The position numbers and the translations under genes are program-made. The notes beneath the pieces were generated by a model. That model saw only the letters and a list, made by a program, of their open reading frames with translations, was not told the origin of the DNA and ran no database searches. Source: an uncultured Mycoplasmataceae bacterium (GTDB lineage Bacteria > Bacillota_I > Bacilli_A > Mycoplasmatales > Mycoplasmoidaceae). Taken from it: a stretch of DNA of 64,000 nucleotides. Positions 2,236 through 51,338 of the stretch are shown piece after piece. Location: assembly GCA_947041945.1 (NCBI GenBank), contig CAMREV010000002.1, positions 1 through 64,000 of the forward strand, written 5' to 3'. Every line of letters starts with the position of its first letter. Within the stretch, counting starts at the first letter, position 1.

Positions 2236-3465
2236 ATGAATAAAAAAATAAAATTTAGTTTATTAGGAACATTAATACTTAGTTCAAGTCTTGCTATGGC
2301 TTTACCAATTGTTAGTTGTTCAGCAGCAAGCACACCTGAACCAACACCAACAAAAACTTTAACAGTTGATCTTGGTAATTCAGCTATTGATGCAACAAAA
2401 GCTATCACTTCATTATTTAATGCAAAAAAAACTTTTCAAGAGCAAGAGAATTTATTAGCTGGATGAACTGCTGATGCACAACTTGATGCAAGCATTATTA
2501 CTGCAATTAGAAAAAATATAAAATTCACAGATGATATTGGCGCGCCTGTTGAATATGTTTATGCTGTTGCTGGAATATCATTTTCAAAATCATTTGCACC
2601 TCTAATTTCTGGTTCTCCAACAAGTACTGCACAGTTAAAAATTATATTTACAAAAGAATATTTATCTTCTGCTAATACATTTATTGAAATTGGTAGTTTA
2701 GGTAATCCTGTAGCACCAACAAATCTAACACCAACTCTAAATAATTCAACAAAAGATGCAACAAGTGCTTTTAAAAAATTATTTGATGCAAAAACAACTT
2801 TTTATGAACAAAAAGATTTACTAGCTAGTTGAGCGATTGGTAAACAAGTTGATCCAACTGTTTTTGAAGCTATCAAAAATACAATAACATTTGTTAATGG
2901 TACTGCACCTATTTCTTTTGATGTTGCTGTTGATAGAATAGAAATATCAAAACCATTTGACCCTCTAACTGCAGGTGTTGCCCCAACTGGCGCTGAATTA
3001 AAAATTATATTTAAAAACGGATATACATCTTCTCCTGAAACAATTATTCCAATTAGTAGTTTAGGATTTGCTAAAGCAATACCATTAGAATTTGATGTTT
3101 TATTGACACCAGAATTGGAGAAGGTTATGAGTAACGGACTTAAAAATGCATTGGCTGCTGCCCCAAATAGAGAAGCACAATCAAAATTATGATGAGACAC
3201 ATTTGTGAAAGGAAATATGAAAGAAATACTTACACAATCACTTAACTCTGCTAAAGATTTTCATTTTACAGAAATTGAAAATAATAATATAATTAATTGA
3301 ATAGATGCTATAGAATCTATTCAATCAGTAGATTTTATTCCTTCATTGATACCAGCAACCGGACTGCCGTTTGAAGAATTTAGTTTAAAATTTAATTTGA
3401 ATTCAAATTATTCAACTACGAGAGTTTTAACTTTTAGAATGAGCAATTTAGGTAATGCTAAATAA
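2236..3465 (+). CDS. Surface lipoprotein with two internal repeats (copy 1)
   Basis: 409 residues. A signal peptide ends in a type II lipobox (ALPIVSC, Cys28), so the mature protein should be lipid-anchored on the cell surface. It contains two tandem related domains of about 110 residues, roughly residues 45-160 and 170-285. Each has the pattern DA-T-A---LF-AK-TF-EQ--LLA-W, then T-AQLKI or TGAELKI, and ends in I-SLG. A third, more divergent segment follows. Four TGA codons are read as Trp. A paralogue of 411 residues follows at 3719 and is close to identical in the N-terminal half. No known family recognised; antigen or adhesin role is inferred from location and repetition. Confidence 0.85.
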
Positions 3466-3532
3466 AAATTAATAAAAAAAGTTATTAATATATAACAAAT
3501 TTATTATGATGATAAAATCATGAAAAAAAAAT

Positions 3533-3562
3533 AAAAAATGTATTTACAAATACATTTTTTTA
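3533..3562 (+). terminator. Terminator of lipoprotein copy 1
   Basis: AAAAATGTATT pairs with AATACATTTTT and runs into T. The same hairpin, and about 40 bp of sequence before it, recur after copy 2 at 5099-5130. Confidence 0.65.
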
Positions 3563-3667
3563 TTTGGGTTAACACATTATTCAAATTAATAAATATTTTT
3601 TATAAAAAATATTCATTTGTTAATCAATAATTAAAGCAAGATATTTATTTTAAACTTTATAAATTTA

Positions 3668-3695
3668 TTTGTTTTTTCAAAAAAAGAATTATAAT
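3668..3695 (+). promoter_or_regulatory. Promoter of second lipoprotein gene with poly-A spacer
   Basis: TTTGTT (3668-3673) and TATAAT (3690-3695) with a 16-bp spacer containing seven A (3679-3685). Geometry matches the copy 1 promoter; the A-run is one base shorter. Confidence 0.45.
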
Positions 3696-3718
3696 ACACA
3701 ATATATAAGGATAAAATT

Positions 3719-4954
3719 ATGAATAAAAAAATAAAATTTAGTTTACTAGGAACATTAATAGTTAGCTCAAGTCTTGCTATGGCTTTGCCAATCGTTAGTT
3801 GTTCAACAAGCTCATCTGAAGAGACGCCAACAAAAACTTTAAAAGTTGATCTTGGTAATTCATCTATTGATGCAACAAAGGCTATTACTTCATTATTTAA
3901 TGCAAAAAAAACTTTTCAAGAGCAAGAGGATTTATTAGCCGGATGAACTACTGATGCACAACTTGATGCAAGCATTATTACTGCAATTAGAAAAAATATA
4001 AAATTCACAGATGATACTGGCGCACCTGTTGAATATTTTTACGCTGTTGCTGAAATATCATTTTCAAAATCGTTTGCACCTCTACTTTCTGGTTCTCCAA
4101 CAAGTACTGCACAGTTAAAAATTGTATTTACAAAAGAATACTTATCTTCTGCAGATGTATTTATTGAAATTGGTAGTTTAGGTAATCCTGTAGCATCAAC
4201 AACAATAACTTCAACACTAAATAATTCATCAAAAGATGCAACAGATGCTTTAAAAAAAGTATTTGATGCAAAAAAAACATTTTATGAACAAAAAGATTTA
4301 CTAGCTAGTTGAAAAATTGGTAAAGTGGTTGATCCAAGTGTTTTTGAGGCTATCCAAAAAACAATGACATTTGTTGATGATGGTACTAAAGAACCTGTTT
4401 CTTTTGTTGATGCTGTTGATAGAATAGAAATATCAAAAACATTTGATCCTCTAACTCCAGGCGTTGCTCCAACTGGCGCTGAATTAAAAGTTGTATTAAA
4501 AACTGGATATATATCTTCTTCTCTTGAAACATTTATTCCAATTAGTAGTTTAGGACTTGCTAAAGCAATGCCATTAAATTTTGATGCTGATGTTACATTG
4601 AAAAATAAATTGGAGGAAGTTATGACTAATGCGCTTAGTGCTGTGTTAGCTGACACAACTGATAGAGTATCACAAAATATGGTATTTGAATTAATTATTA
4701 AAGGAGATATTAAAGATATGCTTACAGAGTCACTTAATACTGTTGAAAATTTTCATTTTTTAGAAATTAAAAATAATAATATAATTAATTGAATAGATGT
4801 TATATCTACTATAAAAAATATTTCTGCTTTTATTGAACTACCCGCTGCTGGAGAGGTCATTCCAGGATTTAGTTTAAAATTTAATTTGAATTCAATATAT
4901 TCATGCAGTAATGATTTAACTTTTAATATTGGTACTTTAGGTATTGCTAAATAA
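3719..4954 (+). CDS. Surface lipoprotein with two internal repeats (copy 2)
   Basis: 411 residues, paralogue of the gene at 2236. It has the same signal peptide and lipobox (PIVSCS, Cys28) and the same two-domain repeat architecture. Divergence is concentrated in the second half, while residues 1-180 are nearly unchanged. That pattern suggests recent tandem duplication or partial gene conversion. The copied unit includes the promoter and downstream terminator. The start has the same AAGGATAAAATT leader. Probably an exposed antigen; function unknown. Confidence 0.85.
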
Positions 4955-13498: not shown

Positions 13499-14494
13499 GA
13501 ATAACTCAAGCAATTCATCACTTGATATTTTTCCAAAATATTTTTGTAAATCTATTTCATTAAGAATTGATTTTATATTATTAATTTCTAATTTTTGATT
13601 AATAAATTTATCTAACATTTTTGAATGATCCTCAGTTGCTAAGAAGTCACCTTCAAAAAGAATTTTTTGAATAATGTCATTCTCAATATTCAACCATAAA
13701 GTTATTGTTCCACCATCAAATCTTTCAGCATTATGCTTTGATAAATTGTATGGATGATTAAATGTTCATTCTTTAGTAGCATATTTTTCTTTAAATATTT
13801 TATTGATTAACTTATTATCTTTATCAATTGTTTTATATGCAACACCAGGTTGAAGTTTAAAGTAATCAATAAATTTATCAAAGAAATTTTCAGTATCAAT
13901 TTTTGTTTCCAAATAGTTAATAATGTTATCAACACTTGTTATTTGAGATCTTTGTACTTTTGCTTGAATCTTAATTGGATTAACAGTTAAGTATTTTTTT
14001 ATCGCAGGCAAACATGCATCAAATAAAATTGTTCCATGATGAACCAATACATTATTTCAGACATATTGAGCATTACCACTAATTTTTACATCATTAACTG
14101 CTAAATCATTTTTACTAGATAATTTAGCATTGATGTTATATATTTTTAAAAAACTAATAATTGGATTTAAAAATAATTCATAATTTCCAGCTTGTTTTTT
14201 ATTTTCAACAATAAAGCTAAAACAAAAGTTTCCTAAATCATGAAAAACAGCTCCACCACCAGAAAGTCTTTTAACAATTCTAACCTTATCTTCAATAGCA
14301 TTATTCAAATTAATTTCAAATTCTGCAACTTGGTTTTTTCCAATTACAATTGTATTTTTATTTCTTCATAAAAAGACAATAGGTACATTATTTTTTGGGA
14401 AAATATTTTTAGATAAATGTTCTTCTAAAGATAAGTTGTAATATGGGTCATTACTTTCTGAAACATATAAATAAAAATTATTTATAGTTTTCAT
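13484..14494 (-). CDS. lplA: Lipoate-protein ligase
   Basis: 336 residues. Activates lipoate with ATP and attaches it to the E2 lipoyl lysine. The biotinyl/lipoyl transferase core has RRLSGGGAVFHD-like motif (KRLSGGGAVFHDLGN) and a conserved Lys in the DVKISGNAQ segment. The C-terminal accessory domain is also present. The gene overlaps pdhD by 17 bp and is last in the pdh operon, so the ligase is made together with its substrate protein PdhC. Confidence 0.93.
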
Positions 14495-15872
14495 ATAAAG
14501 CTTTTTTTGCAACTTCATATATTATTTCAGATATAGAAGGATGTGGATGAATTGTTGCAACAAGGTCAAACACTGTTGCTTCAGATTGCATTGCTACAGC
14601 TATTTCAGAAATCAAATCAGAAGCAGTAGATGCAATAATGTGACATCCAATAATTCTTCCTGTTTTTTTATCTAAAATCATTTTAATAAAACCATCAGTT
14701 TCATGATCTGCTAATGCTTTACCAAGATGAGACATTGGCATTTTAGTTACAAATGATTCGTTTGGATTCATATCTCTTTCAATTATACCAATTGAAGCAA
14801 CTTCTGGATAAGTGTAAATAACTGAAGGGCTTTCAACTAAATGATATGGAATATCTTTTCCAAGAATATGATCAACAGCAATCATTGCATGTTTATATGC
14901 AACATGAGCTAACATTAATTTTTGAGTTAAATCTCCAATAGCATAAATATGCCCTTTAGATGTTTGTAAATTTTTATTGACTACAATTCTATTTCTCTCA
15001 TCATAAACTAAATCTATTTTCTTAAATGCATCATATCTTGGAACTCTTCCAACTGAAACCAAAACTTTATCAACATTTTTTTCAATTATTTTACCATCTA
15101 ATTCATATGATAATGTTTTGTCATTTATAGATTTTATTTTTACATTGGTAATGATTTTTATTCCTTTGCTTGTAAGAATTTGAGTCATTGTTTTACTAAT
15201 CTCATTATCTAACACTTCTAAAATACGATCAAGACCTTGCAGAATTGTAACTTCAGTTCCTAATTCACAATATAGTAATGCAAATTCAATGCCAATTACT
15301 CCACCACCAATTACTGTTAATTTTTTTGGAATTTTATTAAGTTCTAATGCATCAGTACTATCAATAATTATTCCTTTTGTTTTTGCTTCTTTAAAACCAG
15401 GTAAATCTAATTCTCTTGGTAAAGACCCTGTAGCTAGAATAATTTTTTCTCCATAGTATTTTTCACCATTAACTTCAACAATGTGATCGCTAACCATTGC
15501 AGCATTTCCTTCAATTAGCTTTGCTTTTGCATTTTGAATAATAAATTTTACTCCACTAACCAATTTATCAACTACTTCTTTTTTGTTTTCTTGCATTGCT
15601 TTTCAATCAAGGCTAAATTCATTATTTCCTTCAATATTAATTCCGTAATGTTTAGCTTCTTTTAAATAGTGTAATACTTTAGCTGATTTTAATAATGTTT
15701 TAGTAGGAATACATCCTTTATTTAAACAAACTCCACCTAAAGATTCTTTTTCAATTACAAGTGTTTTTAAATTATGTTTTCCAGCATGTTCTGCAGCAAC
15801 ATAACCACCAGGTCCCCCACCAATAATTATTAGATCATAGTGGTTTGCTTCTTCAATTAATTTACTTTTCAT
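14478..15872 (-). CDS. pdhD: Dihydrolipoamide dehydrogenase (E3)
   Basis: 464 residues. FAD-dependent reoxidation of dihydrolipoamide. The FAD-binding [10 protein letters not shown] (about 19-28), redox disulfide [12 protein letters not shown]-binding GGGVIGIE and the C-terminal HPHPSISE His-Glu pair are all present. No N-terminal lipoyl domain, unlike some mycoplasma E3 proteins. ATG 15872 is chosen over 15890: AAAGGA lies before it and it is 1 bp past the pdhC stop. Confidence 0.96.
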
Positions 15873-15873
15873 T

Positions 15874-17238
15874 TTAGAAATTCCTTTCATAGAATTTTAA
15901 TTCAATTTGGTCTTTTATGAACTTAGCAAATCTTCCTATATCGGCTCCATCAATTCATCTATGATCTGCACTTACAGTTATGTACATCATATCTTTTGAT
16001 GCAACTTTACCTTCTTTATCTAAATATAATTTTTTCTCAATTCCACCTAATCCAAAGATTGATAATTGTGGATAAAAAATTATTGGTTGTCCATACATTG
16101 CACCAGTACTACCTAAATTAGTAATAGTATATGTTCCACCTTGAATTTCATTTACAGTTAATTTTTTATCTCTTGCAGCTTTAGATAACCTTACAATTTC
16201 TTTAGCAATATCAGATAAACTTAAATAATCAGCATTTTTAATATTTGGAACTAATAAACCTTCTGGTGAATCTACTGCAAACCCCATGTTTATATCTCCT
16301 CTATAAATAATTTTTTCATTGATCTCATCATAAACACCATTGAAAATTGGGAATTGTTTTAATGCTAAACTTATTACTTGAACAAAGAATGATAAGTAAG
16401 TTAGGTTAACACCATGTGTTGTTTTAAAACTATCTTTTACTTTTGCTCTAAATTTAACTAATTCAGTTACATCAACTTCAAATACTAACATTGTATTTGC
16501 AATATTAACATGTGCTCTTGTCATTGAATTAGCAATTTGTTTTCTAATTGGAGTTATGTCACTACTATGATCAATATCTTTCATTGTTACAGCAACATGA
16601 TTTTCTTTTTTAAGTTTATCTGTAAAACTATTTATTTCATTTGCTAATCTATTTCTTTTGAAGATTAAGACATCATCATATAGCACTCTTCCGTTAGGTC
16701 CAGAGCCACAAACTTGTGACAAATTAATTCTTAATTCATTTGCAACTTTTCTTGCTAATGGAGTTGCAATTAAATTGTTGTAATCAGTTACTTGGTTATT
16801 GTGTAATTCCTCACCTTGATTTCCAATTTTTCCCATTAATTTATTTGAAACAGTTACTTGACCTACAACAGATGATCCTTCATTACTTGCGGACTCTTTT
16901 TTGTCTTCTGTTTTTTGCTCCTTTGTTGTTTCAATAGTTTGAACAGCTGGAGTTTGTTGTGTTGTAACAACAGATTCTTCATCAAGTTTTTCACCAGGAT
17001 CACCAATATACATTAATGGATCACCAACATGAACTAGTTGACCTTCTTTAATATATATTTTTAGAATTACTCCATTTGATGGACAAGGTAAATCAGAAGC
17101 AACCTTATCAGTTTGAACTGATAATAATGGTTCTCCCTCTTCTACTTTTGCACCAACTTTTACTTTAATCTCTTGAATTGTTCCTTCATGAAGACCTTCA
17201 CCTATATCTGTGAAACGAAATATTTTTTTTTGACTCAT
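15874..17238 (-). CDS. pdhC: Pyruvate dehydrogenase E2, dihydrolipoamide acetyltransferase
   Basis: 454 residues. One lipoyl domain (1-80, lipoylated Lys45 in QTDKVASD), a Pro/Glu/Thr-rich linker, an E3-binding domain ([23 protein letters not shown]) and the catalytic acyltransferase domain ending in DHRWIDGAD with the active-site His. Transfers acetyl to CoA. Core of the complex with PdhA, PdhB and PdhD, whose genes surround it. Confidence 0.96.
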
Positions 17239-25582: not shown

Positions 25583-27421
25583 ATGAATTATAAAGGAATG
25601 GTAATTGGTGCTGGTCATGCAGGTTTAGAAGCAGCATTTGCTTTTGCTAACAAAAAAATGCATGTTGCTTTAGTTTTAATGGATGAAAAATTAATTGGAA
25701 ACATGCCATGTAATCCATCAATTGGTGGACCTGCAAAAGGAATTGTAACAAGAGAAATAGATGCTTTAGGTGGAATGCAAGGAATGGCAGCTGATGCTTG
25801 TCAATTACAAATGAAACTTTTAAATAGCTCAAAAGGTGCTGGTGTTAGAGCATTAAGAGCACAAATTGATAAAATTGAATATCATAAATTTTTTAAAAAA
25901 TTAGTTGATGAAAATGAATACATTGATTTAATTGTTGGAGAAGCGGAAGAAGTTTTAATTAAAAACAATCAAGCAGTTGGCTTGAAAATAAATGGAAAAG
26001 ATTATTTTTCAGATACTGTAATTATTTCAACTGGAACATTTTTAGATTCAAAGGTATTCATTGGTCACGAGAGCAAACAAGAAGGACCAGATGGTTTTTC
26101 TGCTTCAACAAAGCTTGCTAAAAATATTAAAGAAATTGGTTTTGAAACAATTAGATTAAAAACAGGAACACCTCCCAGATTAGATAAACACTCATTAGAT
26201 TATTCACAATTTCAAATAGAACCAGGAACTGATGGAAAATATAGTTTCTCTCATTTTAATTGTAAATTTCTTGATATAAAAGACCAAGAGGTATGTTATT
26301 TAGTTCATACAAATTTAGAAACTCATGAAATAATCAAGAACAATTTAAAAGAATCTTCAATGTATGGTGGAGCAATTAGTGGTACTGGTCCTAGATACTG
26401 CCCAAGTATTGAAGATAAAGTTGTAAGATTTCATGATAAAGAAAGACATCAAATATTTATTGAACCAGAATCTAAACAATTAAATACAGTTTATTTAGCA
26501 GGTATTTCATCATCCTTACCTAAAAACATTCAAGAACAAATGGTTCATTCAATTAAGGGTATGGGAAATGCCATATTCATTAAACATGCTTATGCTATTG
26601 AATATGATTCAATAAAACCAGAACAATTATATCCTTCTTTGGAAAGTAAGAAAATTTCAAACTTATTTTTTGCCGGTCAAATAAATGGTACAAGTGGATA
26701 TGAAGAAGCTGCTGGACAAGGATTAATTGCTGGAATTAATGCGATCTTAAAAATTGAGAATAAAGAACCATTAATTTTATCAAGATCTGAAGCATATATT
26801 GGAGTAATGATAGATGATATTGTAACTAAGGAAATAACAGAACCATATAGACTTTTAACTAGTAGAGCAGAACATCGTTTAGAATTAAGAAATGATAACG
26901 CAGATGAAAGATTAATTAAGTATGGTTATGAAATTGGTTTAATTTCAGAAGAGAAATATAAATTATTCAATGAAAACATTGACAAGTTAAATAAGAATAT
27001 TGAAATGCTTAAAAACAAACTTACATCTGAAGTTAAAGGACTTAAAACTACATATAAAAAATCAAACATCAGCTTATATGAATTAATTAAAAGACCAGAC
27101 TTTTCATATCAAGATTTAAAACAATATATTGATGCATATGAATTAGATGATTTTTGACAAGAAAAAATAAACATTAAAATTAAATATGATGGCTATATTA
27201 AAAATCAAAAAAATTTAATTCAAGATTATGAAAAATTATCAAGAACAAAATTAAGTGTAAATATTGATTACAAACAAGTCAACAATTTATCATTAGAAGC
27301 AATTGATAAATTGAATAAATTCAAACCAATAGATTTAGGTCAAGCCTCTAGAATATCTGGAGTTACTTTTAATGATTTAATAAACATTAAATTTTTCTTA
27401 AAAGGTAATAGCAATGAATAA
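25583..27421 (+). CDS. mnmG: tRNA modification enzyme MnmG (GidA)
   Basis: 612 residues. FAD-binding GAGHAGLEAAFAFA at the N-terminus, GTFLD, and KTGTPPRL, plus the conserved CPSIEDKVVRF and NGTSGYEEAAGQG segments. With MnmE it makes cmnm5U34 in tRNA wobble positions. The stop overlaps the rsmG start by 8 bp. Order gidA-gidB-soj is the classical cluster near many bacterial origins. Confidence 0.97.
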
Positions 27422-31054: not shown

Positions 31055-32371
31055 ATGCAAAAGAATATATTAATTATAAAACCTTATGGCTCTGATAATA
31101 ATTCATTTTTACAATATATAGAAAACGAAACAAACTTTAAATTATTTTGTGTTGAGAAGTTAGAAGAAGACTTTAAAGGTGTAATGATTTTTTGTAGATC
31201 AAAAGATGATTTAAAAAAGTTTAAGAACAAGAATAATGAATATGTTATTAATTTTCAATTAGAAGATGAAAGTCATTACAAACAATTAAATATAGATATA
31301 AAAAAATTCATTTCGAGAGAAAAGAATATTTTATCTGTTAAGTTTTTATTCAATGAAAATATTCTAACTTTAAAAATAGTTACCAAATATAATTACAAGA
31401 TATGTGGTTTTGTTAAAAATATTTTAGATAATTTTGATCAAATTCAAAAATTAAACTCAGCCATAAGAGTTAAGAATTGTGGTGTTAAATTAGAAAATTG
31501 TATTTCAATTGATGAGTTATGAAAATTTTCTAAAAATATTGTAATACTTAATGATTGTAAAAAAAGCATTAAAGATGTAAAAAATTTAGCTATTGGAGAA
31601 TTTGACTTAATTCACAAGGGGCATGAAAAATTATTGAAAGAAAAAAACTTATCCATACTAACATTTATTCACAATCCTAATAAGAAACATTCAATATTCA
31701 ATGATAATTATAAAATCAATCAATTAAAAAAATTAAACTCACATAAAATTTTCATTTATGATATTTCAAAAGAAAATATTTCAGCGAAAAAATTCATAGA
31801 AACATTCTTATTAAAAATTAATCCAAAAAAAATAATAGTAGGTTCTGATTTTAAATTTGGTCATAATGCAAAAGGGAATATAAATTCATTAAAAAAATAT
31901 TTCAGTGTTGAAATAATAGAAAGAGATGAAAACTATTCAACATCAAAAATTAAAGATCTAATCTTAAAAAATAAATTTAATGATGTAAACAAAAAACTAT
32001 GTCATGACTTTCTATTTGAAGGATTAATAGTAAGAGGAAAACAATTGGGAAGAACGCTTGGATTTCCGACTGCTAATATAATAATGAAAACAGAGTTTCC
32101 ATTTATCAATGGTTCATATTATTCAAAATCAATAATAAATAATAAATTTTTTGATTCAATGACTTTTATTTGTTCAAAGAAAAATAATGCAATTTTAATA
32201 GAAACATTTATCTTTGATTTTAATCAAAATATCTATGGAAAAAAGATGCAAGTTATTCCTTTGAAATTTATTAGAAAAAAAGAAAAATTTAAAAATATAG
32301 ATGAATTAATATGTGGAATAAAAAGGGATGAATTAAAGGCTAAGGAATTTAAAAATATTAATAAAAAATAA
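31055..32371 (+). CDS. ribF: Fusion of a TruB-like domain and RibF (FAD synthetase/riboflavin kinase)
   Basis: 438 residues in one frame. Residues about 175-438 are RibF: AIGEFDLIHKGHEKLL with HxGH 187-190, VGSDFKFGHN, then the flavokinase signature GKQLGRTLGFPTANI and GSYYSK. It makes FMN and FAD. Residues 1-165 look like shrunken TruB: the start ILIIKPYGS, the position of GTLDPFATGVL occupied by KLEEDFKGVM, and SAIRVKNCGVKLENCISIDEL-like end (compare LRRT-VG-F-LEDAI-LEEL). The catalytic Asp position is Glu, so pseudouridylation is doubtful. truB and ribF are normal neighbours in Firmicutes. Confidence 0.85.
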
Positions 32372-50987: not shown

Positions 50988-51338
50988 ATGCAATCAGCTA
51001 AGTCTATTAGAATTGAAAGATATGAATCAAACATATTAGAGCATCTTTGTAATTTTTTGAATAAAGAAATTTATAACAAAGTTTTAAAAAAATCTTCTTT
51101 TACATATTGTAGATTATCTAGAGATTTTTCTATGTTAAAGGTTTATGTTGATTCTATTAATCGTGAAGAATTAGATAAGATTGTTTTAAATTTAAATAAA
51201 TTCAAAGGAACTTTTAGAACTGAAATTGCTAAAAACTTTGATTTTAGAAAAGCTCCAACAATTGAATTCTTAAGAGATACATCAATTGATAGAGCAGATG
51301 AAATAGAAGATATTTTAAGTGAATTAAAAGGTAGTTAA
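50988..51338 (+). CDS. rbfA: 30S ribosome-binding factor A
   Basis: 116 residues. KH-like fold with SAKSIRIERYESNILEHL at the start and APTIEFLRDTSIDRADEIEDIL at the end, as in RbfA. Helps 16S maturation of helix 1. In the nusA-infB-rbfA operon. truB, which normally follows, is not here; only a degenerate TruB-like domain exists at 31055. Confidence 0.93.
   Translation: MQSAKSIRIERYESNILEHLCNFLNKEIYNKVLKKSSFTYCRLSRDFSMLKVYVDSINREELDKIVLNLNKFKGTFRTEIAKNFDFRKAPTIEFLRDTSIDRADEIEDILSELKGS

Follow-up and report, generated by a model that had tools for sequence, protein, structure and literature searches.

In the window, by which we mean the whole stretch of 64,000 nucleotides analysed, a single open frame of 438 codons joins a degenerate TruB (tRNA pseudouridine 55 synthase) domain to RibF. 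The features of this locus are as follows.

31055..32371, + strand: fusion gene of degenerate truB and ribF, 438 codons, read with code 4 (TGA = Trp)
31055..31528, + strand: degenerate TruB domain, residues 1-158, delimited by alignment to the two fused TruBs of sister genomes and by a TruB/Cbf5 fold match
31145..31186, + strand: former motif II (GHxGTLDPxAxGVM), now FCVEKLEEDFKGVM, residues 31-44; the catalytic Asp is changed to Glu, and Gly-His-Gly-Thr and Pro are lost
31274..31318, + strand: region of a ~50-residue deletion, residues 74-88; the TxTYDxxG Tyr/Asp motif and the Q-PP-S-IK-NGKKLYEYAR segment are missing
31385..31423, + strand: former SKGFYVRSFANDL motif, now TKYNYKICGFVKN, residues 111-123; the invariant Gly, Tyr and Arg are lost
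31520..31522, + strand: TGA codon of Trp156, an apparent stop under table 11
31580..31966, + strand: RibF FMN adenylyltransferase (FAD synthetase) domain, motifs GEFDLIHKGH and GSDFKFGHNAKGN
31967..32368, + strand: RibF riboflavin kinase domain, motifs GRTLGFPTAN and ETFIFDFNQNIYG

The frame at 31055-32371 (+) is open only if TGA is read as Trp; table 11 breaks it at the TGA of codon 156, yielding a product of 155 amino acids and a RibF frame. The leuS gene in the window contains 19 internal TGA codons, many more are found in other genes of the window, and the genome (661 kb, 12 contigs, 90% complete) encodes a tRNA-Trp with anticodon TCA; hence code 4 is correct for this genome. A reading made earlier from the sequence alone had described one 438-codon frame here, which matches exactly under code 4, and the strings that it quoted from the protein (ILIIKPYG, KLEEDFKGVM and IRVKNCGVKLENCISIDEL) are all present. 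Standard annotation would label the gene just RibF and so overlook that it is a fusion and that Psi55 has probably been lost. Elsewhere in the window, positions 2236-3465 and 3719-4954 hold two adjoining lipoprotein-like ORFs whose starts are nearly identical (MNKKIKFSLLGTLI...); they are apparently tandem duplicates.

In both other genomes of the same genus that were compared, TruB and RibF likewise share a frame without interruption, and TruB is intact there (GGTLDP or AGTLDP).

2544-3989: intact TruB-RibF fusion, locus L061 (L002/L061), 481 codons
2575-3732: intact TruB-RibF fusion, locus L062 (L015/L062), 386 codons, running to the contig end

The TruB halves of these fusions (records CASEQO010000035.1 and CASDUM010000043.1, uncultured Mycoplasmataceae) score 200 and 191 bits against TIGR00431, where the cut-off is 151, and 157 bits against PF01509. 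They bear out the gene fusion that the sequence-only reading had proposed. When relatives were searched with the window protein, a match was found in 45 of the 59 genomes, reaching the N-terminal half in the two same-genus genomes. In the family's other genera each of the two genes has its own frame, frequently next to the other, and outside the genus (95 genomes of the family and 148 of the order, two overlapping searches of ~200 distinct genomes) no TruB match sits in an open frame exceeding 330 codons. The fusion thus appears confined, within this sample, to the genus of the window, and no paper describing a TruB-RibF fusion was found in the open-licence literature searched. In the RibF tree the three fusions form one branch with weak support (83/52), which is joined with genus g10 in a well-supported group (97/95); a single ancestral fusion event is likely.

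Two further arrangements were seen among the relatives. In genus g6 of the same family, the C-terminus of RibF is fused in one frame, under code 4, to a full MnmA, the tRNA 2-thiouridine synthase (L007, 1480-3453, TIGR00420 394 bits; L008, 1501-3474; L010, 1447-3420), with truB immediately upstream in a different frame. Counting TruB-RibF, ribF has thus gained a tRNA-modifying partner by fusion on at least two occasions in the family. In genera g4 and g5 of family f1 (G005, G006, G014, G015 and others), both TruB_N and FAD_syn are unmatched in every genome; these genomes are mostly single-contig, and a different or strongly diverged enzyme may supply FAD there.

The C-terminal part of the window protein, residues 176-436, matches RibF over both of its domains (Pfam FAD_syn, E=4e-16, 59.6 bits, cut-off 27; Flavokinase, E=3e-28, 99.2 bits, cut-off 19.6). 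Alignment with solved RibF structures shows the signature motifs retained, the HxGH motif (GEFDLIHKGH) and the PTAN motif (GRTLGFPTAN) both being present, and the model of the kinase domain matches the kinase module of C. ammoniagenes with Z 16. Against the NCBIfam equivalog TIGR00083 the RibF half scores 164.0 bits, below the cut-off of 184.35. The sister L061, whose TruB is intact, is also under this cut-off (155.9 bits), so the sub-threshold score reflects divergence of the lineage; it is no defining feature of RibF function. By its sequence, the region of residues ~176-436 is apparently an intact RibF with FAD synthetase and riboflavin kinase.

The N-terminal part is far less conserved. 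No TruB family of Pfam or NCBIfam is matched by residues 1-155, the cut-offs of PF01509 and TIGR00431 not being reached, and a hit of the protein to Pfam DUF4897 (20 bits, under the cut-off of 28.6) was discarded. When aligned globally with each sister TruB half, at an identity of 22-25%, these residues gave Z=5.4 and 6.4 (1000 shuffles, none of which reached the real alignment score), and among 1042 reading-frame segments of the genome this segment ranks first in similarity to those halves. The alignment of the window protein with both sister fusions is collinear across the two halves, and the excised region scores 14.5 bits (E=0.003) against TruB, the flanks on both sides of the deletion being in register. 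With templates from outside the genus, hhalign recovered the same register over 153 columns at a score of 29.2, equalled by one of 400 unrelated segments; since that segment is a purine nucleoside phosphorylase, the hhalign score is not decisive by itself. The match to TruB from sequence alone is marginal, yet the resemblance of residues 1-155 to TruB, as measured by these comparisons, exceeds chance. It is the comparison with the sister fusions that upholds the earlier claim of a degenerate TruB at the RibF N-terminus, at residues ~1-158.

A model of the full protein, built from a five-row alignment, has mean pLDDT 80, with blocks of the N-domain at 76-92. Its residues 1-158 match TruB 1ze2 (Z 15.5, 157 residues, 2.9 A), and Cbf5 chains match too. 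Because the alignment includes intact TruB rows, this fold match demonstrates compatibility and is not independent proof. The N-domain alone, modelled from the single sequence, gave a poor and uninformative result (pLDDT 44), but the order of its strands and helices is the same as in TruB. Retention of a pseudouridine synthase fold by residues 1-158 is supported by the aligned model and by the simulations described below, and structure prediction, which had been proposed as a check, returned a TruB-like fold from the aligned model, with the bias of its TruB rows.

The motifs of TruB are largely gone from this domain. In TruB structures the Tyr and the Arg have active-site roles, and the segment deleted here is the part with which the enzyme grips the tRNA T-loop. 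We called a column strongly conserved if at least 85% of the rows of 38 relatives share the same residue. Of 38 such columns, six are kept in the window protein (K9, K29, L36, G42, Y63 and R138) and 10 are deleted. FGxxTxTYDxxG and the PP-SA-K segment are mostly deleted, and the YxRS motif has become NYKICG. The deletion at residues 74-88 appears as two gaps in the alignment, 16 and 34 columns long, whose exact endpoints vary by aligner. The Asp of the GTLDP block, invariant in the rows of all 38 relatives, is Glu (KLEED) in the window protein; this is the catalytic Asp of the family, which in motif II of human TRUB1 is D121 (PMC9458420). The loss of catalysis proposed earlier thus agrees with the substitution or deletion of all the Asp, Tyr and Arg active-site motifs and with the failure to find a second TruB (below), whereas the suggestion that tRNA binding was perhaps kept is unsupported, the largest deletion being the T-loop-gripping segment. 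We read the domain as vestigial, folded and catalytically dead, and predict from the sequence that both Psi55 and TruB activity are absent from the organism.

If the domain had decayed neutrally, its pattern of substitutions should resemble that of simulated decay. We ran 420 neutral simulations starting from the sister TruB genes, with three base compositions, no stops, equal identity and the same realignment. Hydrophobic columns stayed hydrophobic in 87% of cases (simulated, 79-85%); this retention alone was rejected as evidence, as neutral AT-rich simulations also give ~0.8. Polar columns turned hydrophobic in 14% of cases, against 31-37% in the simulations. The contrast between hydrophobic and polar retention is 0.73 versus a simulated 0.48-0.49 (sd 0.07-0.08), and none of the 420 simulations was as high. 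Thus, much of the divergence happened under a continued need for a soluble fold. This requirement could come either from a function of the domain itself or from the solubility of the attached RibF, and either before or after the loss of catalysis.

No TruB was found elsewhere in the assembly. TruB_N has no match in the whole window genome, while the same search was positive in 14 of 14 control genomes; none of the 3432 reading frames of at least 50 codons is an intact TruB; no other frame of the 31055-32371 region matches TruB; and a genome scan for G[TS][LM]D[PSK] gave no site in a TruB context. A frameshifted or second truB was rejected on the strength of these region-frame, genome-frame and motif scans. 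The two checks suggested by the sequence-only reading therefore came out in its favour: the 90% complete assembly contains no second truB, and two split genes are contradicted by the lack of TruB in other frames and by changes scattered across the whole domain. A separate truB within an assembly gap is possible at this completeness. truB is often located after rbfA, which here lies elsewhere in the window.

50988..51338, + strand: rbfA (Pfam RBFA, E=8e-20)

It is followed not by truB, whose absence from this place had been noticed earlier, but by an ORF that resembles a membrane protein and matches no Pfam family. The pseudouridine synthase class as a whole is not lost, since synthases of the RluA and TruA types are present in the genome. 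Loss of truB is common in the family (no match in 39 of 95 genomes), and M. genitalium, M. pneumoniae and the hemoplasmas are Mollicutes without TruB (PMC4014445).

A compensating change in the tRNAs was considered and rejected, all 27 of 27 tRNAs retaining U54 and U55. C56 of the tRNA T-loop is nearly universal; the tRNAs for Glu, Asp and Ala (contigs C3, C5 and C9) have U56 in its place. A relative with TruB has an identical Glu tRNA; at least for tRNA-Glu, U56 is therefore no consequence of TruB loss.

The persistence of the remnant may be explained by the position of the start codons. The usual in-frame starts available to RibF are limited to two ATGs, one at codon 1 and the other at codon 44 within the TruB remnant; the next in-frame ATG, GTG or TTG comes no earlier than codon 194, which is already past the HxGH motif of RibF. 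As RibF has no usual start of its own, the simplest assumption is that it is translated through the remnant, though it may start at a rare codon, ATT or ATA. Two FAD enzymes, named from sequence, are encoded in the window, and hence RibF is still needed.

25583-27421: MnmG
14478-15890: dihydrolipoamide dehydrogenase

We propose that truB and ribF merged into one frame in the ancestor of the genus, so that the product became a protein of two parts. Selection for Psi55 would then have been lost in the lineage of the window, the active site substituted and the RNA-gripping segment deleted, while RibF, the maker of FMN and FAD, would have remained required. Carried along by RibF as a small folded passenger, the remnant would have to keep both its open frame and its solubility. 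That an ancestral fusion left a dead but folded TruB remnant, kept because RibF lacks its own start, is in our view probable. Fusion to a needed gene could in this way protect a useless domain from deletion, even under strong genome reduction.

Alternatively, the domain could be a pseudoenzyme with a retained job, either binding or folding tRNA like the dead E. coli TruB, or stabilising or assembling RibF. TruB is a tRNA chaperone, and a catalytically inactive form of it relieves the growth defect that E. coli lacking truB shows in co-culture (PMC11301382); moreover, the fold and the soluble surface pattern are retained above neutral expectation, and the domain is undeleted despite a genome of only 661 kb. 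However, the conserved PP-SA-K-GKKLYEYAR segment and the FYVRS Arg are lost, the truB-less related genera have a normal stand-alone RibF, which therefore needs no such domain, and the absent start codon accounts for persistence without any function. We consider this alternative unlikely; if it were true, the fusion would have made a tRNA-modifying enzyme an accessory domain of flavin synthesis, and the system provides a test of a non-catalytic role of TruB.

The possibility that the N-terminal part is an extension before RibF unrelated to TruB draws on the lack of any family library match above cut-off and on the marginal profile scores. It is very improbable given that the position of this part equals that of TruB in the sister fusions, with collinear alignments (Z 5.4 and 6.4), and that the TruB order of secondary structure is seen even in the single-sequence model and a TruB-like fold in the aligned one. 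Slightly less credible still is an enzyme of changed kind, with a new RNA or ligand target: the domain is folded in the model and far diverged (its identity with the TruB halves of the sisters is 22-25%), but the catalytic Asp common to pseudouridine synthases is now Glu, its neighbours and the Tyr and Arg motifs are lost, and no new conserved motif is visible in what is the single such sequence known. An assembly or sequencing artefact, a frameshift or chimera joining two genes, might be suspected from draft assemblies and a frame open only with TGA=Trp, but can practically be dismissed, as the fusion is seen in three independent assemblies, the substitutions are scattered with no frame change, no other frame matches TruB, and code 4 is backed by tRNA-Trp(TCA) and many genes.

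Returning to the reading of a dead remnant carried by RibF, we may compare the window gene with known systems. Its residues 176-436 match RibF (TIGR00083, PF06574, PF01687) over the full length with the signature motifs kept; unlike RibF, the protein begins with an additional domain, and its RibF part has no usual start codon to itself. This domain resembles TruB (TIGR00431, PF01509) in domain order, in modelled fold, in partly keeping motif I (KP-G) and in a position matching that of the intact TruB in the two sisters. It differs in having lost the catalytic block, the motifs that bear Tyr and Arg, and ~50 residues from the part that binds RNA, and in being missed by both the TIGR00431 and the PF01509 models. 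The sister fusions are the same gene, in the same order and in one frame, whereas their TruB retains GTLDP, the Tyr and Arg motifs and its full length; they probably carry all three activities. Hence there is a natural series, from separate truB and ribF in other genera through the intact fusion of the two sisters to the fusion with dead TruB in the window. As in the TruB-less Mollicutes (PMC4014445), the Psi55 synthase would have been lost in a reduced genome; TruB is reported to be plainly absent there, whereas in the window genome a fused remnant survives. Thus, the loss of truB is itself ordinary in Mollicutes, and what is unusual is the TruB-RibF fusion and its persistence as a dead half.
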